Source of the DNA: Promethearchaeota archaeon
Lineage (GTDB): Archaea > Asgardarchaeota > Lokiarchaeia > Sigyniarchaeales > SOKP01
Assembly (NCBI GenBank): GCA_016840545.1
Contig: JAEOSD010000008.1
Span: forward strand, 1-34,501
DNA length: 34,501 nt
Direction of reading: 5' to 3'
Part shown: positions 20,571 to 31,667 of the stretch, piece by piece
Numbering within the stretch: position 1 is the stretch's first letter
Layout of the letters: each line of letters starts with the position of its first letter
Program-made: the position numbers and the translations under genes
Notes under the pieces: model-generated
What the model was told of the DNA's origin: nothing
Seen by the model: the letters and a program-made list of their open reading frames with translations, nothing else
The model's database searches: none

Positions 20571-21872
20571 TTAATGGGTGGCGCAAGAAATACATGGATC
20601 AAAAGCTCTTATAATTTTTTGAATTTCTTTCTTAACTTTATTTAAATCCTTTTTTTCATAGAGTTTTCGAGCATAATTACTAATCATATTGTTAATAAGT
20701 GCTATATTTATTTCTGTTGCTATAAATAATTTAGCTTCTTTAAGAACATTTCTTTTATTAATTCGATAATGATGAATAAGCGATCCTCTAGGAGCTTCCA
20801 CAACTCCAATACCTTCTCGAGAAATAATTGATTTAAGATTTGGAAGAGGAATGGTACTTTTTAGAATAGGATCCTCCAAAATTTTTAATGAATTTTGTGA
20901 TTCAACATACATTTCAATTAAATTTAAAAAGGACGCATATAGAATATTATTTCTCCATTTTTCATCAAAAAGACTTAAATATCCAGAAATTTCATCTGAT
21001 CCATAACTTTCTACAACCTGATTTCGAGAAATTGGTCCAACTAAATAATTATGATTTTTATCAGTAAAATCAATACCCCTTATTGTAGGATCTTTGTCAA
21101 AATAATCGATATATTCTTCTAACCTAAAGTCCTGATATTCAGCTAACCCCTTTTTTATGGTTAAAATACCATCATATCTATCATAGGATTTATTATTACT
21201 TAATGAAAGGAAATTAACATTTGGGATTACAAAATCCTCTGGTGGGTTAAACTTTGAGAATAAATCAATAAAGTTTTTAATAATCCATTCTAAATTACTT
21301 AATACCCTTAAAAAGTATTTCTCAACAATAATTATCCTATTCCGTGATGGTCTATAAATAACTCCACCAGGGATAGGTGTAATTGCATGGATTGATCTTC
21401 CCCCAAAAAGCTTATCTATATCATTCCCGATTTTAATAATTTCATATATGTGAGAGGTTAATTGTGGATTATATTTTATTAAATCATAAATATCGATAGG
21501 TTTTGTATAAATTTTAAAGATATTTAATAGGTCTGGAAAAGATTGGAAAAAATAATGCATACTATGTGATTTTAATAACTCTCCTGCCATCAGGAGCCTT
21601 CTTACTAGAACAGATTGTTGATTGACTTTTATATTATACATTTCTTCAATGCTTTTACAGCTTACAATAGTTTGGGATGCATGGCATAATCCACATATTC
21701 TAGAAACAATTTTAGGAACATCTGATAATTTTTTACCTATTAAAATATTTTCAAATCCTCTGAAGGCTAAAATTTCAAATTCCACATTCGAAATCTCATC
21801 ATTTTGTATATAAATTTTTACATTACCGTGACCCTCAACCCTTGTACACACATCAATAACTTTTTGAATCAT
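20571..21872 (-). CDS. mvhA: [NiFe] hydrogenase large subunit, group 3 (Mvh-like)
   Basis: A 433-residue catalytic subunit. The N-terminal signature is RVEGHGNVKI, the L1 motif RICGLC is at 58-63, and the L2 motif DPCISCATH is at 425-433, so all four nickel-binding cysteines are present. The protein ends exactly at the L2 histidine, so it has no C-terminal peptide for a maturation protease to remove. The position after L1 usually held by His is Gln67 (CHASQ). The gene follows the small subunit by one base, with an overlapping Shine-Dalgarno ggtgat. It likely feeds electrons from H2 to the HdrA-MvhD fusion encoded first in the operon. Group 3c is inferred from this partner. Confidence 0.92.
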   Translation of the reverse strand: MIQKVIDVCTRVEGHGNVKIYIQNDEISNVEFEILAFRGFENILIGKKLSDVPKIVSRICGLCHASQTIVSCKSIEEMYNIKVNQQSVLVRRLLMAGELLKSHSMHYFFQSFPDLLNIFKIYTKPIDIYDLIKYNPQLTSHIYEIIKIGNDIDKLFGGRSIHAITPIPGGVIYRPSRNRIIIVEKYFLRVLSNLEWIIKNFIDLFSKFNPPEDFVIPNVNFLSLSNNKSYDRYDGILTIKKGLAEYQDFRLEEYIDYFDKDPTIRGIDFTDKNHNYLVGPISRNQVVESYGSDEISGYLSLFDEKWRNNILYASFLNLIEMYVESQNSLKILEDPILKSTIPLPNLKSIISREGIGVVEAPRGSLIHHYRINKRNVLKEAKLFIATEINIALINNMISNYARKLYEKKDLNKVKKEIQKIIRAFDPCISCATH

Positions 21873-21873
21873 A

Positions 21874-22632
21874 TCACCATCCTATTTTTGGTTTCGAGAA
21901 TCTATAAAAGATTCCTTTGTATTTTGTTAAATCTTTAGAGAGATTAATAAGACTTAAGAAATTTATCAAATTTGAGGTATAATCCTTAGATACAGGCCCT
22001 AAACATCCTTCACAGGGTATTCCCTGTTCAATACAAATATGATCGCAGCCCTCCCTAGTTATTGGTCCTAAGCATAAAATTCCATTATCTAAAAAGCAAT
22101 TAGATTTCTCATTAAAAATTGTTAACTCATCATTTGATGGATTTAATTTGTTAACTGGTTTTTCAAAAGGAATATTATTATTTCCTCTTAGAGGGCATGA
22201 TGAGCATAGATTTTTTTCCGATAATTTTATTTCTTTATTTTCTATTAATCTTATTAAACAATTTCCTATTAGTTTTAAAGGAGGAGGACAACCAGGAATT
22301 ATACCATCGATTTGGACGACATCTGATATTGCACCTGCTTTTTTCTTTTCAGATAAACTTAAAATTCCCCCAAATGCTGCACAAGTACCTAAAGCATATA
22401 CTTTTTTTGCATTATTTCTAATATCTTTTAATAGTTCAATTTGTGAATCCATCGAAATACAACCTTCTATTAAAGCAATATCGCATTCTTCAATTTTATT
22501 CTCATCAGAGATAAAGGGAAAGTAAGAAAGTTTTATTCTTTCTAAAAACTGAGGAAATATATCACTTGAGAGTACAGAAGATATGCATCCACTACAGGAT
22601 GTAAGTGATGCTATTAAGATTTTAAGTTTCAA
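21874..22632 (-). CDS. mvhG: [NiFe] hydrogenase small subunit (Mvh-like)
   Basis: A 252-residue electron-transfer subunit. The proximal 4Fe-4S cluster is bound by C13 and C16 (TSCSGCISS), the Cys of GTCAAFGG, and the Cys of PGCPPPLKLIGN. The C-terminal half adds further cysteines (LCSSCPLRGN, NGILCLGPITREGCDHIC and PCEGCLGP) for two more clusters. There is no signal peptide, so the enzyme is cytoplasmic, as for group 3. Its start overlaps the end of the HdrA fusion by 11 bases, and the large subunit starts one base after its stop, so the three genes are translationally coupled. Confidence 0.92.
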   Translation of the reverse strand: MKLKILIASLTSCSGCISSVLSSDIFPQFLERIKLSYFPFISDENKIEECDIALIEGCISMDSQIELLKDIRNNAKKVYALGTCAAFGGILSLSEKKKAGAISDVVQIDGIIPGCPPPLKLIGNCLIRLIENKEIKLSEKNLCSSCPLRGNNNIPFEKPVNKLNPSNDELTIFNEKSNCFLDNGILCLGPITREGCDHICIEQGIPCEGCLGPVSKDYTSNLINFLSLINLSKDLTKYKGIFYRFSKPKIGW

Positions 22633-25168
22633 ATCTAATCTCCTCCGTTAATACGTTATAAAATTTATTTATTGCATTTGCAAATTTGGCACCTTCAACC
22701 GCATTCAGATTTTCTACTATTATCCTATTACTTAATCGGGGACCAAATACTTTCTTTAACAGGTTTACTTTTTTCTGAACTTTTTGAATTCCATCGATAT
22801 ATCTACACGCATCTTTTCTACAGCCAATAACCATTACACCATCAAATCCACACTCAAATGACTTAAGGATAAATTCAGTATCAATACGCCCTGTGCATGG
22901 TACTTTAATTATAAACACATTGGGATGATAGAATAATTTCTTTAATCCCGCATCATCTGCAGCAGCATAACCACAGGATTTACAGCAAAAAGCAATAATC
23001 ATTGGCTTTTTATTAAATTTAGAAAAAATTTCTATTGTTTTAAGTATTTTTTTGGAAGTATCAATATTTAAATCAATAGCATTTGTAGGACACACACTCA
23101 CACATGATCCACAGCCTTTACATTTAAATTTATCGATATTTATTTTATCTCCCCCGATTATTATGGCATTATATGGACAAGATACTACGCATAATCCGCA
23201 CAACCCACACTTTTCTTCATTTATTTTAATTCCTGTAAATTCTGATACTAAATAGTCATTTGAAAGAAGATAGATTATTTCTAAAGCTGTTTGATTTGTT
23301 GTAGAAATTGTAGATTTATAATTTAATGGTCCAAAAATTGTACCAACGCCATATATACCAGATGCTAAAGTTTCTCTACTCATGAAACCATTATCGTCTA
23401 AAGAAAAGTCCATGTATTTTCGAAGATTTTTTAAATCTTTGTTGGGAATATACTTAAGGTTTAATACTATCAAATCACTTAGAAATTCAGTATCATCAGC
23501 AACAACATAGTTTATATCTTTAATACTTTTAACAGAAATATGATTAGCATAAATAAATTTAGGGTTAGTTGATCTTAATAAAATCTGATCCTTATCACTT
23601 AATTTACTCAAATCATAAAAAACATTAACTTTACATTTAGTATTTCTTATTTTAATATCCTCAATATATTTTTGTGCTAAAATTTCAGAGTAATCTGAGA
23701 TTAATTTTGAAGGTCCGACCTCTTGAAGAATAGAAACCGAATTAACTGGTTTCTTGTCTGATATTCTTAATAATTTCCCTTCTGTAATACCATCAGAAGA
23801 TAATATACGCTCAAATTCAGGTGAAGTAATAATATTATTTTGAGGATTATAATTGTAATCCTTTAAGTTATCACTAAAATCTGCCCCGATAGCTATAACT
23901 TTTACACCAACCTTAATTCGGACTTTTTCTGGTTTTTCATTTAAATTAATTGCATTATTAATACAAGCTCGTTCACAAATCCTGCAATCGAGACAATCTT
24001 CAATATCTTCGTGATCAATTAAAGGGATATATGGATATGAATTCTGAAAAGGGATATATATAACTTTTCGATATGACAGACCAAAATCGTATTGATTCTT
24101 TTTCTCTTTACCACAAACATTAACGCATTGTTTACATCCGGTACATTTCTTTTCATCTATATAGCGAGGTTTTTTAATTAATTCAATTGTAAAATTTCCC
24201 ACTTCTCCTGAGATTGTTTCAATTTCGCTATTTGTAAATATATTGATATTCTTTTCTTTGACTATTTCTCCAATCAATTCTGAAGTGAAACAAATAGAAC
24301 AATCACCCATCTCAGAGATACGGTGCCATCTAGCTACTTTACCCCCTAATGTTGGTGATTTTTCAATAAGATATACTTTTATTCCTGCTTTTGATAAATT
24401 CAGTGCTAAAGTCATACCTGCAATACCACCCCCTAATATTGCACAAGCTTTCTCAACTTCAACCGTTTTAATTTGAACTTCCTTTTGAAGCTTTACACGT
24501 TCAATTCCTGCTTCTATTAATAATTCTACTTTTTTTAGAATTAGATCCGCACTAAATTTTTCGAGATTTGAATCATGAACCCAGCAGCATTGCTCCCTAA
24601 TATTTGCAATTTCTATATTTGTATGTTCAATCACATCTTTAAAGATACGTTCAAAAATATGTTGGTGTGTTTTTGGAGAACAAGCTGCAATTACTACTTT
24701 ATTTAGAAAATTTTGTTTTGCCCAAGATGTGATTTTATTCAAATTCTTTTCTTGACATAAATTATCAAATTTCTTGACAGAAACAACATCATTTAACTTT
24801 GCAATATACCTCTCTAATATTTCAATATTAATAACATTAGAAATTTCAGTATTACAATCACAGATTATTACTCCTATACGATTTATTATATTTCCTCTTT
24901 TATCCAAATATTCTAATTCTTCGCCTGATAAAATACGTTTGTTTAAACTTATTATATTTAATACTCTTTTACCATCTTCTGTCAAAAAATAAGATTTTTT
25001 ATCTTTACTGATCAATGACCCAAGCTTTTTTAAGTGGAAATTTAATTGCCCCGTTTGGGCTAAACCCAATTTTTCCATTAAATCGGTATAAGGAATGAAT
25101 CCCTCTCTTTCCAAAAGTAAGAGAATCTTTCTACGAAAAGGATGTGATAATATTGAGTAAATATTCAT
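22622..25168 (-). CDS. hdrA: Winged-helix/HdrA/MvhD fusion flavoprotein
   Basis: An 848-residue fusion. Residues 1-75 are an ArsR-like winged helix (MNIYSILSHPFRRKILLLLE and LGLAQTGQLNFHLKKLGSLI). Residues 97-645 are HdrA: FAD-binding GGGIAGM near 246-252, PTLGGKVAR, two 4Fe-4S motifs (CTGCKQC...C at 342-352, CLDCRIC...C at 392-402). Two more ferredoxin clusters lie at 654-664 and 683-693. Residues 722-805 are MvhD, with CCKSCG, PCTGR and GCRKDAC. HdrA bifurcates electrons from the hydrogenase to ferredoxin and a second acceptor, in methanogens HdrBC; none is encoded here. The start ATG at 25168 has a strong Shine-Dalgarno ggagg (25177-25181). Domain assignment is firm; a regulatory role for the winged helix is inferred. 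Confidence 0.92.
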   Translation of the reverse strand: MNIYSILSHPFRRKILLLLEREGFIPYTDLMEKLGLAQTGQLNFHLKKLGSLISKDKKSYFLTEDGKRVLNIISLNKRILSGEELEYLDKRGNIINRIGVIICDCNTEISNVINIEILERYIAKLNDVVSVKKFDNLCQEKNLNKITSWAKQNFLNKVVIAACSPKTHQHIFERIFKDVIEHTNIEIANIREQCCWVHDSNLEKFSADLILKKVELLIEAGIERVKLQKEVQIKTVEVEKACAILGGGIAGMTLALNLSKAGIKVYLIEKSPTLGGKVARWHRISEMGDCSICFTSELIGEIVKEKNINIFTNSEIETISGEVGNFTIELIKKPRYIDEKKCTGCKQCVNVCGKEKKNQYDFGLSYRKVIYIPFQNSYPYIPLIDHEDIEDCLDCRICERACINNAINLNEKPEKVRIKVGVKVIAIGADFSDNLKDYNYNPQNNIITSPEFERILSSDGITEGKLLRISDKKPVNSVSILQEVGPSKLISDYSEILAQKYIEDIKIRNTKCKVNVFYDLSKLSDKDQILLRSTNPKFIYANHISVKSIKDINYVVADDTEFLSDLIVLNLKYIPNKDLKNLRKYMDFSLDDNGFMSRETLASGIYGVGTIFGPLNYKSTISTTNQTALEIIYLLSNDYLVSEFTGIKINEEKCGLCGLCVVSCPYNAIIIGGDKINIDKFKCKGCGSCVSVCPTNAIDLNIDTSKKILKTIEIFSKFNKKPMIIAFCCKSCGYAAADDAGLKKLFYHPNVFIIKVPCTGRIDTEFILKSFECGFDGVMVIGCRKDACRYIDGIQKVQKKVNLLKKVFGPRLSNRIIVENLNAVEGAKFANAINKFYNVLTEEIRFET

Positions 25169-25513
25169 TTCAAAATCCTCCCTCTTTCTCTTTTATTATG
25201 GTTTTTTTCTTAATTTTTAATTTTTGATAAATTTATTTTTCCTCATGATAATGATTGTTATCGAATTATTTAAATCTTTGTAAAATATTGATCATATAAT
25301 GTATGAGATTTATAGTCCACATTATGAATATTAGTCATTTTTTTGTTAATTTTAGATATAACTAAAAAAATTGTCATATTAGAGTTTTTGATTAAAAAAT
25401 TTATCAAATTTGAAGAAATTATTCTTGTCAAATTCCTTTTATTTTGGTAAAATAATCATTTACTTAGAAAGTAAATTACTTGTAAATTTAAACTTAAAGA
25501 GGTGTATAACTTA
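25169..25513. promoter_or_regulatory. Divergent promoter region of the redox island
   Basis: The 345 bases between the two oppositely transcribed redox operons hold no gene. They are extremely AT-rich and contain several inverted repeats (gataa/ttatc at 25247-25262, and two tight ones at 25439-25476) plus the Shine-Dalgarno sequences at both ends. TATA boxes cannot be pinned down in such AT-rich sequence. Shared control of both operons from here is an inference from position. Confidence 0.5.
25439..25476. promoter_or_regulatory. Paired palindromes, candidate operator
   Basis: Two perfect inverted repeats lie side by side: ttatttt-ggt-aaaataa (25439-25455) and atttactt-aga-aagtaaat (25458-25476). 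Their centres are 20 bases apart, about two helical turns, as expected for a dimeric regulator bound twice on one face. They are about 40-75 bases before the start at 25514. Confidence 0.4.
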
Positions 25514-26131
25514 ATGGAAGTTTTGGAATTTAAACCAATAAGAGACAAAAAAATCGTAGTATATATGTCATCTAAAGAGAATGCTAAATATTTCCAAAAT
25601 ACTGATAACTCTAAACTTATAGAATTTTTAAAAAAGAAAAATATTGACTTTATCACTGTTGATTTTCAAGTTGATATAAAAGAATTCAGAACAACACCAT
25701 TTGCTCAAACATTAAATGAACTAGACATACCATATTTTCAATTAGATATTCCAGATTATGCTATGGGGTATCTATATCAGGAAATTATTGAAAAACAACA
25801 ATTTCTAAATGAATTGTTTGAAGAATATGAAAATATGGAAGATAAAGAATCGTTTAAAGGGCTTAGTTTAAAAAATTGGATAGATATGTTGGGGGAGGAA
25901 ATTCAGGAAAGAGAAATTTTTCTTAGTTTAAAATTAAGACCTCAATGGATTGTTAAAAAAATGTTAGATTTAGCATTATCTTACAAGAAAGATACTGTGA
26001 CATTTGTTCATTTTGTTCAAGAAGATATCTGTGAAGATATTTGTCCGCAAGTAGTTGAAAATTTAAGAGAATTAAAAGTTAAAGTTATATCTTATAATAA
26101 AAAACATACAATTCAAAATATAATATTTTAA
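25514..26131 (+). CDS. Unknown protein, first of a paralogous pair
   Basis: 205 residues from ATG 25514, chosen over GTG 25502 because the Shine-Dalgarno gaggtg covers that GTG. It begins MEVLEFKPIRDKKIVVYMSS. The layout parallels the next gene: an N-terminal strand after a VLExKP motif, a DIPYFQLDIPDYA segment matching GIPFKHTDISENA, a long charged helical middle, and an alpha/beta C-terminus. Both recall the TraB/GumN fold in outline, but this copy has no His at the expected C-terminal motif (HFVQEDICEDI), so it may be inactive. It is the first gene of the rightward operon; its role is unknown. Confidence 0.65.
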   Translation: MEVLEFKPIRDKKIVVYMSSKENAKYFQNTDNSKLIEFLKKKNIDFITVDFQVDIKEFRTTPFAQTLNELDIPYFQLDIPDYAMGYLYQEIIEKQQFLNELFEEYENMEDKESFKGLSLKNWIDMLGEEIQEREIFLSLKLRPQWIVKKMLDLALSYKKDTVTFVHFVQEDICEDICPQVVENLRELKVKVISYNKKHTIQNIIF

Positions 26132-26154: not shown

Positions 26155-26880
26155 ATGCCAGAAGTATTAGAATTAAAACCTTTAAAAAATAAGAATTTAA
26201 AGTTAATTTTAATTGAGAGTGAGTTTCCTATCGACTGGTGGTTTGAAGTACCCAAGGATTATAAAGAAGATCTTTTTTGGAATCTTCATTTAATTTCTAA
26301 GGAATACCTTGAATTAATTAATTCGTTAATAAAAAAATATAACCCGAATTTTATTTTAGAAGAAAGACCAAATTCATGGAGTGAAGAACTGAATGCAAAT
26401 GATCCTTTAAAAATGCTTATTAAAAAACGTGGAATTCCGTTTAAACATACTGATATTTCAGAAAATGCTGAATTATATCTCTCTTCAGCGTTAGATGAAC
26501 ACAGGACCATAGTTAAGAATCTCGAAAAAAGGATTAATGGTATAATGAAAGAATTTAAGGAAAAACCAGAAAATGATGAATTTTTTCAACGTTTGGTATT
26601 ATGGAAAGAATATTTACAATTAGATTACAATAGTCAAGAAGATGAAGTCAGATATAAGGTTCGAGAAGCATGGATGATGATGAATATTTTAAAGTTTGCA
26701 AAAGAATTTGAAGGAAAGAAATTGAAATGTTTATTCATATGCGATCCTCGACACTTTAACGGTCTTGAGAAACTTTCATTGGATCTTGGTATTGAAACCG
26801 AACAAGTGAAAATAAGTAGAAGGATTAAAACTGAAGGAGTCGGAGAAATCTTTGAAAAAGATTTAGAAATTGATATTTAA
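26155..26880 (+). CDS. Unknown protein, second of the pair, TraB/GumN-like outline
   Basis: 241 residues starting MPEVLELKPLKNKNLKLILI, with a Shine-Dalgarno gaggcg upstream. A motif FILEERPNSW (E-x-x-R-like) follows the first alpha/beta part. After a long helical region come REAWMMMNILKFAKEF and KCLFICDPRHFNGLEKL, which resemble the conserved R-x-x-x-M and G-x-x-H segments of TraB/GumN/EreA-type proteins. The match is by eye and remote. It is a diverged tandem copy of the preceding gene and lies 37 bases before the MtdB-like gene. It might be a helper of C1 or redox enzymes; this is not established. Confidence 0.65.
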   Translation: MPEVLELKPLKNKNLKLILIESEFPIDWWFEVPKDYKEDLFWNLHLISKEYLELINSLIKKYNPNFILEERPNSWSEELNANDPLKMLIKKRGIPFKHTDISENAELYLSSALDEHRTIVKNLEKRINGIMKEFKEKPENDEFFQRLVLWKEYLQLDYNSQEDEVRYKVREAWMMMNILKFAKEFEGKKLKCLFICDPRHFNGLEKLSLDLGIETEQVKISRRIKTEGVGEIFEKDLEIDI

Positions 26881-26917: not shown

Positions 26918-27913
26918 ATGGTAGAAAGAGAACTTGAAAATATTCTTGGAAAAAAGTCAATAATAGAATTAACACCCATTATTATTAAGAAGAAAGATAC
27001 CTCCGATAAAATTTGCTATTTTTTTGATACTGATGATAATGCATCTCCATTCGATATCAATATGGCATATGATGCCGGTTTTGATGTTGTAATCCCTTAC
27101 AATAATATAAAAGCTGATAAAGTAACTCAATTAGTTCAAGATGCAATGTTTTCGAGAAAAGCAAGCGCTCCAACGGTTTATTTTATTGGTGGTTCCAATG
27201 TAGAAGAAGCTAATAAGATAGCTGAAACTGTCTTAAATTCGCTTGTGCCTCCTTTTGAATCTCCTGTAATCATAGATCCAAGAGGGGCTAATACAACCGC
27301 AGCAGCAATGGTTGCTAAGACTATAGAAGTTACTCGAAAACTAGGATGGCATGATATCTCTGGTAAAAAAGTTGTCATTTTAGGAGGTACAGGTCCAGTT
27401 GGACAAATTGGTGCAATTTTAGCTGCAAAGCTTAATTGTACTGCTGTAATGACATCTCGAAGGGCGGATACTGTCAAGATATTAGCAAAGAACTTAACTG
27501 AGAAAGCAGGAGAAGGAGCAACCGAAATTATTGGTGCTGTAGGGATTACTGATGAGCAAAAATATAACCTTCTTAAAGAAGCTGATATTATTTGGTCTGT
27601 AGCTAAAGCAGGAGTCCAAATGGTTTCGAAAGAACTATTAGAAAAATTACCTAACAATAAGATCGTAGTTGATATCAATTTAGTGCCTCCCTACGGAATT
27701 GAGGGATTAAAACCAAAATTTGAAGGTGATGAAATAATTCCAGGAATTTATGGAATTGGAGCTTTAGGTGTCGGGAGATTGAAATACAAGACTGAGAGTA
27801 ATATTTTTAAAGAGGCATCAGAGAGCAAAGGTAAAAAAATCTTTAATTATAACAACGCATTCAAACTTGCATGTAGGATTCTTTTCGACGAAGAAATTCA
27901 GATTACAGCTTAA
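26918..27913 (+). CDS. mtdB: Methylene-tetrahydromethanopterin dehydrogenase, MtdA/MtdB type
   Basis: A 331-residue enzyme that oxidises methylene-tetrahydromethanopterin (or the folate form) to the methenyl form with NAD(P)+. Hallmarks are FDTDDNASPFD (36-46) and YDAGFD in the pterin-binding domain, RGANTTAAAM (122-131), the Rossmann loop ILGGTGPVGQIG (154-165) followed by SRR (180-182), and IYGIGALGVGRLK near the end. The Arg pair suggests NADP preference, an inference. Methanogens use an F420-dependent, unrelated Mtd, so a nicotinamide-dependent version beside NfnA and an NfnB fusion suggests direct coupling of C1 oxidation to NADPH. Shine-Dalgarno gctgatg lies upstream. Confidence 0.88.
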   Translation: MVERELENILGKKSIIELTPIIIKKKDTSDKICYFFDTDDNASPFDINMAYDAGFDVVIPYNNIKADKVTQLVQDAMFSRKASAPTVYFIGGSNVEEANKIAETVLNSLVPPFESPVIIDPRGANTTAAAMVAKTIEVTRKLGWHDISGKKVVILGGTGPVGQIGAILAAKLNCTAVMTSRRADTVKILAKNLTEKAGEGATEIIGAVGITDEQKYNLLKEADIIWSVAKAGVQMVSKELLEKLPNNKIVVDINLVPPYGIEGLKPKFEGDEIIPGIYGIGALGVGRLKYKTESNIFKEASESKGKKIFNYNNAFKLACRILFDEEIQITA

Positions 27914-27991: not shown

Positions 27992-28879
27992 ATGGTCTAT
28001 AAAATTTTGATGAAAAAAGAATTAGGAAGTAGTGGAACGTTATTTGAAATAGAATTAGCCACGCCTTTAATTGCTAAAAGGGCGCGTGCTGGAAATTTTA
28101 TTTTAATCAGAATAAATGAAAAAGGAGAGAGGATTCCTTTAACTATTGCTGACTATGATCGAGAAAAAGGAACAATAACGATTGTTTTTCAGGTTATTGG
28201 TAAAACTACAAAGTTATTATCAACATTAGAAAACGGAGATTTCCTTCTTGATGTTGTTGGGCCTTTAGGAAATGAAATTCATATAAAAAAATTTGATTAT
28301 CCTGTGGTAATTATTGGAGGTGGAGTTGGTATTGCTCCATGTTACCCTCAAGCAAAGGAATTGAAAAAAGCAGGAAACAAGATAATTTCAATTATTGGCG
28401 CAAGGAGTAGCGAATTATTATTTTGGAGAGAAAAAATGGAAGAAGTTAGTGATGAGTTAATAATTTGTACAGATGATGGAACCGAAGGGAAAAAGGGTTT
28501 AGTTACTGAACCCCTTAAGGAACTTTTAAAGAGAGAGTCTTTAAGTCTAGTTATTTCTATAGGGCCATTAATTATGATGAAATTTGTAGCTCTAACGACA
28601 AATGGGTATGAAGGATTACCTAAAGTAAAAACGATGGTTTCTCTAAATACTATTATGATTGATGGTACTGGCATGTGTGGAGGATGCCGATTTTCCACAA
28701 TAGATGGGAAAATATACTTTGCATGCGTGGATGGCCCTGATGTAGATGGTCATATGGTAGATTTTGATAATCTTATAAAGCGTGCTAAGAGATTTATGGA
28801 TCAAGAAAAAGAGAGCATTGAACTCTATGAACATGAATGTAGGGCTGTAGAAAAACTCAAAATGGGAGGTTCATTTTAA
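27992..28879 (+). CDS. nfnA: NfnA-like ferredoxin-NADP oxidoreductase alpha subunit
   Basis: A 295-residue FAD and [2Fe-2S] subunit of the NfnAB/sulfide dehydrogenase family. FAD is held at RIPLTIADYD (47-56). NAD(H) binds at IIGGGVGIAPCYPQAKEL (107-124). The C-terminal DHODB-type cluster has Asp224, Cys229, Cys232 and Cys245 (DGTGMCGGC and FACVDGPDVDGH), the Asp-plus-three-Cys arrangement known for NfnA. NfnAB couples NADPH to NADH and ferredoxin by flavin bifurcation. The partner NfnB starts one base after its stop and is fused to extra domains. Confidence 0.92.
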   Translation: MVYKILMKKELGSSGTLFEIELATPLIAKRARAGNFILIRINEKGERIPLTIADYDREKGTITIVFQVIGKTTKLLSTLENGDFLLDVVGPLGNEIHIKKFDYPVVIIGGGVGIAPCYPQAKELKKAGNKIISIIGARSSELLFWREKMEEVSDELIICTDDGTEGKKGLVTEPLKELLKRESLSLVISIGPLIMMKFVALTTNGYEGLPKVKTMVSLNTIMIDGTGMCGGCRFSTIDGKIYFACVDGPDVDGHMVDFDNLIKRAKRFMDQEKESIELYEHECRAVEKLKMGGSF

Positions 28880-28880
28880 A

Positions 28881-31667
28881 ATGGAGAATCAAACAACAAT
28901 AATTAAAATTTTATTAGATAATAAACAGAAGATTTTGAAAGCAGCAAAATTCGATAAACCAGAGTTTGATAGCTTAATTTCCAAACTAAATAAAGCTGAA
29001 GAGCAAAGAAAAAAGCTATTACAGAAAATTAAGGATATTGGAGAACTTAATATAGAAAAATTAAGTCATGATTTAGGAATTTCGCGTTATAAATTAACAT
29101 TAAAGATCGATTACTTAAAAGAATTAGGATTTTTAAAAGCTGTCGGAAAGGAATCACGATTTTTCCAATATTTATTGGATGAATATAGATCTAAGGGTAT
29201 TTTTCCTAACGTATCTATTATTAAAGAAAAGAACCTATGTTGCAATTGTGGATTATGTGTTTCTGTATGTCCTTTAAATGCTGTTAAGTATTCTGAGGAT
29301 ACTTTTGAAGTCATTAAGGAAGATTGTATCAATTGTGGATTATGTTTTGCATGTTGTCCGAGATCATTTTTTCCAATAACTCTCAAATTTATTAAAGAGA
29401 ATGAAGATATAAAAACTAAATTTTCTGATCAAATAAATTATTATCGAGAAGTCTATACTGCCCAGACAAACGATAATCAAATAATTGAAGTTGCTCAAGA
29501 TGGAGGTATTGTAACAAGCTTATTAAAGACTGCTTTTCAAGTAAATATGATTGATTGTGCTTTGGCTGTTGGATTAACAAATAAACCACACAAGCCAGCA
29601 CCTATCTTCGTTGAAAATGTAGATGATTTATTAAAAACGGCTGGGACAAAATATAGTAATACACCGTCTTTAAAAATTTTACATGAATCTAAAAAATATA
29701 AAGATATTGCGATAGTGGGGACTCCTTGTATAATGGAGGGGCTTAAAAAAATATCCATCTATCCATTTAGCGAACCTTTTTATGATAATATCGCTATAAA
29801 AATTGGATTATTTTGTATGGAATCATTTGATTACTCACAAATTTTAGAGCTGTTAAAAAATGAATTTCAAAAACCTGCTGATGATATTATTAAAATGAAT
29901 ATAGATAAAGGTAGATTTCTTGTTTATAGTAAAGATGGTACTTCGTTAGATGTTCCTTTAAAAAAAGTCAAAAAATATGGAAGACTGGGATGTTTTTTCT
30001 GTGATGATTTGACTGCTGAACAAGCAGATATATCAGTAGGGTCTATTGGTTCTGAACCGGGATGGTCAACTGTTATAATTAGGACTCAAAAAGGTGCTGA
30101 TCTATTTCAAAAAGCATTAGATTTAAAAATAATCGAAAAGAAAGAAATTAAGGAAGATAATAAAAGCTTTGTTTATTTAGGACGGATAGCTAAGTCAAAA
30201 AAGAAAACATATAAGGAAGGGCGTAGGCCCAAAATGATTGAACAAGATCCTAAAGAAAGAATAAAAAATTTTGAGGAGGTTCCTTTAGGATTAACTGAAG
30301 AAATGGTGAAATTAGAAGCTCAAAGATGTTTACAATGCGGGAGGCCTTTATGCATTAAAGGGTGTCCAGTAAATATTAATATCCCTGAATTTATTAGATT
30401 AATCAAATTAGGTAAAAATGCTGATGCATTACATCTAATTAAAAGAGATAATTTATTACCAGCGATTTGTGGAAGAGTTTGTCCTCAAGAAACCCAATGT
30501 GAAGAAAAATGCCTATTAAATTCACTTGGAGAACCTATTTCAATCGGTTATTTAGAAAGGTTTCTTGCTGACTGGGAAAGAAAAAATAAGCTTAAAGAAT
30601 GTCCTGACTGTCAACCTTCCAATAATATTAAAGTAGCTGTTATTGGATCTGGACCTGCTGGGTTAACATGTGCGGGCGATCTTGCAATGAAAGGTTATAA
30701 TGTTACTCTTTTTGAAGCTTTTCATGCAGGTGGAGGAGTATTGGTCTATGGAATACCTGAATTTAGATTGCCTAAGGAAATTGTTAAAGATGAGATTGAA
30801 ACTTTGAAAATGCTTGGTGTTAAGATTAATTATAATACTATTATTGGTAAGGTTTTAACTCTAGAAGATTTAAAAGAAGAGGGTTTTAGGGCGTTTTTCA
30901 TAGGTGTTGGAGCAGGGCTTCCTATGTTCCTAAGAATTCCTGGATTAAGTTTGAATGGTGTTCTAACAGCAAATGAATTTCTAACAAGATCTAATTTGAT
31001 GAAAGCATATAGATTTCCAGAATATGATACACCAATAAATGTTGGAAAGATAGTTACTGTTATTGGTGGTGGGAATGTTGCTTTAGATTCTGCCCGAACC
31101 GCTCTAAGATTGGGCTCTGATAGAGTTATAATCGTTTATAGACGATCTGAAAAAGAAATGCCAGCAAGACTTGAAGAAATCCATCATGCAAAAGAAGAAG
31201 GTGTTGAATTTCAATTTTTAACAAATCCTACAAGAATCATTGGTGATGAGAATGATAATGCTATAAAAATGGAGTGTCTTAAAATGAAATTAGGAGAACC
31301 AGATGATTCAGGAAGGCGAAGTCCTATCCCCATTAAAGATTCAGAATTTATAATTGAAACTGATACAATAATACTTGCAATTGGAGCTTTAGCGAATCCT
31401 GTTCTAACAAAATCAATCCCTGATTTAATATTAAACAAATGGGGTTATATCGTAGCTGATCCTGATGGAAGGACGAGTATAGAAGGTGTATATGCTGGAG
31501 GAGATATAGTTACTGGAAGTGCTACAGTAATTTCTGCTATGGGTGCGGGAAGAATATCTTCATTAGCTATTGATAAATATCTTAGAAACAAGTTTCTGAA
31601 TAAGGTAGATTCTATTGTAATTAAAATGATGGAAATTAAGCCAATTAAGAGAGGGCAGATAAAATAA
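28881..31667 (+). CDS. Fusion of wHTH, 2x[4Fe-4S], FrhB and NfnB/GltD
   Basis: A 928-residue fusion. Residues 40-100 look like a winged helix after a coiled helix (LNIEKLSHDLGISRYKLTL, then KIDYLKELGFLKAVGKESRF). Residues 118-162 form a ferredoxin with two 4Fe-4S sites (CCNCGLCVSVCP and CINCGLCFACCP). Residues 190-435 are FrhB, the F420-oxidising flavin subunit (VAQDGGIVTSLL, GTPCIMEGL, CFFCDDLTAEQADISVG). Residues 455-928 are NfnB/GltD, with N-terminal Fe-S cysteines (CLQCGRPLCIKGCP), FAD loop GSGPAG (589-594) and NADPH loop GGGNVALD. It likely couples F420H2, ferredoxin and NAD(P)H with NfnA. The domain order is clear; the physiological direction and the winged-helix role are inference. Confidence 0.9.
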   Translation: MENQTTIIKILLDNKQKILKAAKFDKPEFDSLISKLNKAEEQRKKLLQKIKDIGELNIEKLSHDLGISRYKLTLKIDYLKELGFLKAVGKESRFFQYLLDEYRSKGIFPNVSIIKEKNLCCNCGLCVSVCPLNAVKYSEDTFEVIKEDCINCGLCFACCPRSFFPITLKFIKENEDIKTKFSDQINYYREVYTAQTNDNQIIEVAQDGGIVTSLLKTAFQVNMIDCALAVGLTNKPHKPAPIFVENVDDLLKTAGTKYSNTPSLKILHESKKYKDIAIVGTPCIMEGLKKISIYPFSEPFYDNIAIKIGLFCMESFDYSQILELLKNEFQKPADDIIKMNIDKGRFLVYSKDGTSLDVPLKKVKKYGRLGCFFCDDLTAEQADISVGSIGSEPGWSTVIIRTQKGADLFQKALDLKIIEKKEIKEDNKSFVYLGRIAKSKKKTYKEGRRPKMIEQDPKERIKNFEEVPLGLTEEMVKLEAQRCLQCGRPLCIKGCPVNINIPEFIRLIKLGKNADALHLIKRDNLLPAICGRVCPQETQCEEKCLLNSLGEPISIGYLERFLADWERKNKLKECPDCQPSNNIKVAVIGSGPAGLTCAGDLAMKGYNVTLFEAFHAGGGVLVYGIPEFRLPKEIVKDEIETLKMLGVKINYNTIIGKVLTLEDLKEEGFRAFFIGVGAGLPMFLRIPGLSLNGVLTANEFLTRSNLMKAYRFPEYDTPINVGKIVTVIGGGNVALDSARTALRLGSDRVIIVYRRSEKEMPARLEEIHHAKEEGVEFQFLTNPTRIIGDENDNAIKMECLKMKLGEPDDSGRRSPIPIKDSEFIIETDTIILAIGALANPVLTKSIPDLILNKWGYIVADPDGRTSIEGVYAGGDIVTGSATVISAMGAGRISSLAIDKYLRNKFLNKVDSIVIKMMEIKPIKRGQIK

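Follow-up and report, generated by a model that had tools for sequence, protein, structure and literature searches.

A winged helix fused to an HdrA-MvhD flavoprotein in Asgard archaea: a candidate redox-responsive regulator within a hydrogenase complex

Trigger enzymes with DNA-binding domains include PutA, a ribbon-helix-helix (RHH) domain joined to a flavoenzyme, and BirA, a winged helix-turn-helix (wHTH) domain joined to a ligase. The hydrogenases HoxBC and HupUV signal through a histidine kinase and a response regulator, and their large subunits, HoxC and HupV, lack a C-terminal extension. Asgard archaea are thought to live by H2 exchange with partners, and models of eukaryote origin give H2-based syntrophy a central place; we found no described mechanism of H2 or redox sensing in this group. 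H2-sensing hydrogenases are known to serve transcriptional regulation (PMC9100943), and HdrR of Methanosarcina barkeri is a wHTH regulator of hdr genes (PMC11218639). A survey that distinguishes 28 HdrA classes describes no DNA-binding domain in any, and the word 'helix' is absent from its text (PMC12054007). The open-licence literature yielded no earlier wHTH-flavoprotein or HdrA and helix-turn-helix fusion for archaea.

The window analysed here is a stretch of 34,501 nucleotides from a Promethearchaeota archaeon (GCA_016840545.1, contig JAEOSD010000008.1). It encodes a winged helix, HdrA and MvhD in one polypeptide, beside [NiFe]-hydrogenase genes and divergent from a putative one-carbon operon (Table 1). 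The explanation we prefer, and consider rather likely, is that the fusion is a redox-responsive transcription factor built into the hydrogenase complex; the complex would sense hydrogen or redox state and probably switches its own operon and the neighbouring one-carbon operon directly. A sequence-only reading of the window had suggested a trigger enzyme. That idea has gained a conserved winged helix, a deeply conserved palindrome within 25169-25513 and a stand-alone winged helix with the same targets, while its 'bifurcating' element has become doubtful.

Table 1. Features of the fusion locus and its divergent neighbours (window coordinates).
Feature	Coordinates	Strand	Basis or remark
MvhA, [NiFe]-hydrogenase large subunit	20571..21872	-	PF00374; L1 RICGLCHASQ, L2 DPCISCATH then stop
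MvhG, [NiFe]-hydrogenase small subunit	21874..22632	-	PF01058; overlaps fusion gene by 11 bp
Fusion gene	22622-25168	-	One ATG-started open frame, 848 aa
MvhD/FlpD [2Fe-2S] domain, residues 720-840	22649..23011	-	PF02662 E 4e-34; 5odc_D, 40% identity
HdrA part, residues 97-712	23033..24880	-	NCBIfam HdrA2, PDB matches, ligand comparison
Flexible linker, residues 81-96	24881..24928	-	pLDDT < 50 at 82-93
Winged helix (ArsR-like, DUF7347), residues 1-75	24944..25168	-	Pfam, AlphaFold2 model, profile vs PDB
Half-site TTGATAA (TTATCAA on gene strand)	25224..25230		56-62 bp upstream of fusion start; position conserved
Operator-like palindrome TTGATTAAAAAATTTATCAA	25388..25407		One mismatch to TTGAYAA-N6-TTRTCAA
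Extra half-site TTGTCAA	25425..25431		Adjoins palindrome; position conserved
hyp209, uncharacterised	25514..26131	+	First gene of divergent putative target operon; conserved divergent neighbour
hyp241, uncharacterised hyp209 paralogue	26155..26880	+	Fused to MtdB in many Asgard genomes having it
MtdB-like methylene-tetrahydromethanopterin dehydrogenase	26918..27913	+	PF09176 Mpt_N E 4.6e-26
NfnA-like subunit	27992..28879	+	PF10418, PF00175
FrhB-NfnB fusion, weak HTH-like N-terminus	28881..31667	+	Profile matches

Winged helix, HdrA and MvhD had been read as continuous, and they do lie in a single ATG-started frame of 848 aa. The first 75 residues, described earlier as an ArsR-like winged helix, are identified as such by three profile matches: DUF7347 at residues 3-73 (E 3e-10 with the whole protein, 4.5e-12 with the domain alone), HTH_24 above its Pfam cut-off with the isolated N-terminal domain, and the solved ArsR-like structure 1Y0U (E 3.5e-4). 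Structure prediction, a check that the earlier reading had proposed, gave an AlphaFold2 model built from 31 aligned relatives. Its elements (H3-7, H10-22, E24-26, H27-34, H39-52, E53-56, E59-62, H64-80) follow the canonical wHTH order with good confidence and include a recognition helix and a wing, and the linker at residues 82-93 has very low confidence and is disordered. The recognition helix spans residues 39-52 (TGQLNFHLKKL), and its TGQLNFH is invariant across 16 aligned same-family sequences. Sequence-specific DNA binding by the fused winged helix is a well-supported prediction.

The remainder of the protein has the HdrA layout: an N-terminal Fe-S domain, a TrxR-like FAD domain with an inserted ferredoxin, and a C-terminal ferredoxin. 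The top PDB matches of this body are 8RVY and 5ODC, and Pfam finds FlpD/MvhD at residues 724-840 as well as Fer4 clusters. NCBIfam HdrA2 matches residues 97-841 with 551.7 bits, below its curated cut-off of 1100 bits; the protein is an HdrA2 homologue that lies outside strict membership of the model. An enzyme and a DNA-binding-type domain share one polypeptide, which is the layout of trigger enzymes.

One version of the preferred explanation makes the protein a trigger enzyme in the full sense, a working H2-dependent enzyme that passes electrons to ferredoxin or another acceptor, with DNA binding as an additional function by which occupancy of the enzyme is signalled, as in PutA for proline; we regard this as plausible, at rather less than an even chance. 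In 5ODC, C386, C399, C403 and C404 presumably ligate the cluster beside the FAD. These four ligands are absent from the window protein (around residues 483-498), which speaks against a working enzyme; the earlier description of a full HdrA plus MvhD is borne out for MvhD and for most of HdrA, and fails at these cysteines. The site is missing in families f1, f4, f5, f6 and f20 and present in the early branches f18 and f26, a retention in favour of the enzyme, and it is also kept in two other HdrA proteins of the window genome. The FAD-side cluster appears to have been lost after f18 and f26 branched off. Also in favour, the FAD motif, both ferredoxin domains, MvhD and the other examined Fe-S ligands are conserved, as are the invariant E453 and K500, equivalents of the HdrA residues E356 and K409 that have been tied to bifurcation (PMC12054007). 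This conservation leaves genuine electron-bifurcating catalysis possible.

MvhG and MvhA follow the fusion gene in almost every orthologous locus long enough to show them, and MvhA keeps the four metal-binding hydrogenase cysteines, CGLC in L1 and DPCISC in L2, again as a working enzyme would. Against it, MvhA of f1 has CGLC(H/Y)ASQ in L1 instead of CGxCxxxH, a change of His to Gln, and ends at CATH or its equivalent without a C-terminal extension, unlike MvhA of f6, f18 and f20; and no hdrB or hdrC was found near the fusion locus. In the window, MvhA ends right at DPCISCATH with no cleavable extension, and its L1 reads CGLCHASQ. The protein had been called bifurcating, and the E356 and K409 equivalents leave that name possible, while the cysteine loss, the lack of hdrB and hdrC nearby and the drift of MvhA count against it. 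Because the Lokiarchaeal branch has lost the four-Cys cluster beside the FAD, 'full bifurcating HdrA' seems overstated for it. A sensor-like protein would fit these features better than a canonical bifurcating enzyme; they fit, and stop short of proving, a drift of the enzyme part toward a sensor or a simpler relay. Separately, other HdrA-like genes of the genome (G000:C168, C50, C95 and C94; L004-L007) contain in-frame TGA codons; this would be consistent with selenocysteine, which has been reported for Asgard archaea (PMC11227280).

A search of archaeal genomes for HdrA with an N-terminal HTH, proposed with the sequence-only reading, found the fusion in eight Asgard families, 56 of 228 genomes in all, with identity down to 38%; the 67 non-Asgard archaeal genomes sampled gave no case. 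Within the window's own family it is continuous, either full-length or cut by a contig end, in 41 of 61 genomes, and seven further Asgard families carry it. Since it recurs in so many genomes and families at such divergence, it is no accident of one metagenome-assembled genome (MAG); the independent genomes rule out a MAG artefact or a frameshift. Among the 67 non-Asgard genomes, 25 had hits at E <= 1e-10; almost all of these fell in the HdrA part, where they began about residue 73 or later, and a spread of the fusion beyond Asgard archaea is ruled out within that sample. The named matches to the fusion are all Candidatus Lokiarchaeota. In a tree with only two outgroup rows, both on long branches, the fusion is consistent with a single clade in which f18 and f26 branch first.

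The winged helix might instead bind DNA as a constant tether or autorepressor, with no redox switching, which we think unlikely. The flexible linker would suit such a role, and so would one free-standing winged helix without HdrA that keeps the same targets: in G201 (L090:5773-7747) the gene for a 90-aa winged helix, which shares 45-49% identity with its f18 counterparts, opens an operon without HdrA and is followed after 4 bp by a hyp241-MtdB fusion gene. G201 belongs to another Asgard family, of which it is the sole member with hyp241-MtdB, and it is one MAG, with binning error possible. It appears to be a case in which the winged helix is parted from the enzyme and still accompanies the targets. 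Against a constant tether, the fusion has persisted in one clade despite deep divergence, and a constitutive repressor would need no fusion.

Under the preferred explanation the winged helix would act on the genes around it. Upstream of the fusion gene lies either the divergent hyp209-hyp241-MtdB operon (the window, f4, f20 and many f1 genomes) or a co-directional FrhB-like gene. In f18, the same strand as the fusion carries hyp241-MtdB, downstream of it. The fusion and hyp241 show strong co-occurrence: across the 228 Asgard genomes, counted with kinship ignored, 51 have both the fusion and hyp241, 5 the fusion only, 10 hyp241 only and 162 neither. In many Asgard genomes having hyp241 it forms with MtdB a fused product of ~560 aa. 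The hyp209/hyp241 family has no Pfam match, and the hyp241 fold has no PDB match at E <= 0.001; a partner role in tetrahydromethanopterin metabolism is probable for the family. It is unlikely that hyp241 is the missing methenyl-H4MPT cyclohydrolase, since 19 of the 21 genomes searched, among them that of the window, contain a normal Mch. At the far end of this gene set, the first ~105 residues of FrhB-NfnB are weakly HTH-like (HTH_11 E 0.19; HTH_20 E 0.006 in the homologue L108:3796), which only suggests that the window may encode another redox enzyme with a DNA-binding head.

Conserved TTGACAA and TTGATAA blocks in the intergenic alignment resolve to a 20-bp palindrome, TTGAYAA-N6-TTRTCAA. 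Among 38 promoter regions searched with this fixed pattern, in some of which it was first spotted by eye so that the statistics are partly post hoc, 11 have an exact match and 23 a match at <=1 mismatch, against 0.01 and 0.10 expected from dinucleotide shuffles; the reversed pattern gave no match in the same regions. Three results are less post hoc. Genome-wide, 50 exact sites occur in 55 fusion-bearing genomes, and 25 of them lie in the 450 bp that precede the fusion operon or a copy of hyp209 (two FrhB start positions in this tally were estimated from homology matches). In a follow-up, 8 of 16 additional hyp209 promoters, unlinked or paralogous, have the site at <=1 mismatch, with 0.08 expected. 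Where the two operons are kilobases apart (G042, G050 and G060), each is preceded by an exact site of its own.

In most orthologues the palindrome precedes the divergent hyp209-hyp241-MtdB operon by about 110-130 bp. Because of this position, and because that operon has its own copy where a long distance separates the two, the main putative target is the one-carbon operon, alongside the fusion's own or ahead of it. The protein had been proposed to regulate its own operon from the intergenic region, and the palindrome does lie there; as the main target, the one-carbon operon ranks equal or higher. By eye, the site adjoins a TATA-like stretch on the hyp209 side, so that either activation or repression would be possible. 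DNA secondary structure in the intergenic region showed nothing above chance.

The palindrome might also be read by another regulator, with the fused winged helix as a structural or protein-protein interaction domain. DUF7347 and ArsR-like proteins abound in these genomes, one of the many other DUF7347 regulators of Asgard archaea could bind the site, and some fusion loci lack it: no good palindrome was found in the promoters of f4, f5 and f26. This alternative too seems improbable to us. The site goes with the fusion gene, three examined genomes that have hyp241-MtdB or hyp209 and no fusion (L098-L100) lack it, with 3, 5 and 3 mismatches, and the recognition helix is invariant in lineages with exact sites. 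It reads TGQLNFHL in f1, f5, f6 and f20 and differs in f4 and f26 (TGILNFHL or TGKLNFHI, and SGKLNFHL-like). Because f4, f5 and f26 lack a good palindrome, either the rule would not be universal or the operator may have changed along with the recognition helix.

The winged helix could also be a relic or an error of gene calling, and the true start of the enzyme could lie near codon 90. We found no supporting point for this reading, and it is highly improbable: the winged helix has a mean pairwise identity of 0.77 against about 0.71 for the HdrA core and is level in conservation with the ferredoxin domain and above the flavin domain, its distances co-vary with those of HdrA (r=0.94), and no start codon at residues 76-100 is common to relatives. 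An internal start near codon 90 in all relatives, which the sequence-only reading had named as evidence against its fusion, is ruled out as not conserved. In L011, L013 and L036 the aligned start codon of the fusion gene is ATA or ACG with no in-frame ATG upstream, and non-standard start codons are possible there.

We return to the preferred explanation, a redox-responsive factor within the hydrogenase complex. MvhA and MvhG, from what is known of their family, would exchange electrons with H2, and the electrons would pass to the fused MvhD domain and then to the iron-sulphur clusters and FAD of HdrA. Because HdrA is dimeric in the methanogen complex, the dimer would present two winged helices together on flexible linkers, and this pair would bind TTGAYAA-N6-TTRTCAA. 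The redox state of the complex may alter the geometry or availability of the pair, a coupling to DNA that is wholly inferred, and the pair would then set transcription of the hyp209-hyp241-MtdB operon and of its own operon, in either direction. In Lokiarchaeales, loss of the FAD-proximal cluster would point to a sensor or simplified relay over a bifurcating enzyme. In its most specific form the proposal is a one-complex H2 sensor in which a [NiFe]-hydrogenase acts via the fused MvhD-HdrA on the winged-helix pair and controls one-carbon (tetrahydromethanopterin) metabolism with neither a kinase nor a messenger in between. Such a sensor would be shared across Asgard archaea and would have arisen from an electron-bifurcating enzyme through the loss of one cluster; we put this forward tentatively, as a nearly balanced call that tips slightly against. 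The fusion is a direct, testable candidate for H2 or redox sensing, for which both the DNA site and the target genes can be named, and if the proposal is true, HdrA-type flavoproteins join the few enzymes whose own redox state feeds into transcription.

Among the closest known systems is HdrA type Ia, the HdrA2-like, MvhD-fused form of methanogens and ANME (PMC12054007), with which the Asgard fusion shares the C-terminal MvhD, the E356 and K409 equivalents and its best family match (NF040770 HdrA2). It differs in its added N-terminal winged helix, in the loss of the four-Cys FAD-side cluster in most members, and in being encoded beside MvhG and MvhA with no HdrBC nearby. The MvhADG-HdrABC complex (PDB 5ODC, 8RVY) has the same HdrA fold, MvhD domain and MvhA and MvhG subunits, whereas here HdrB and HdrC are not encoded nearby, MvhD is covalently fused and a DNA-binding head is added. 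HdrR of Methanosarcina barkeri, a wHTH regulator of hdr genes, is a separate protein with no such fusion. HoxBC and HupUV resemble the proposed system as hydrogenases that sense H2 for transcription, and the f1 large subunit similarly lacks the extension; in contrast, the DNA-binding domain is here within the complex itself and the hydrogenase is group 3-like, and the annotated genes flanking the window locus include no PAS-kinase or response regulator partner. As in PutA and BirA, a metabolic enzyme and a DNA-binding domain that would control related genes share one chain, but the enzyme is unrelated and the signal would be H2 or low-potential redox, in archaea. We regard the winged helix-HdrA-MvhD fusion as a candidate of the trigger-enzyme type, with an unusually strong conserved DNA site.
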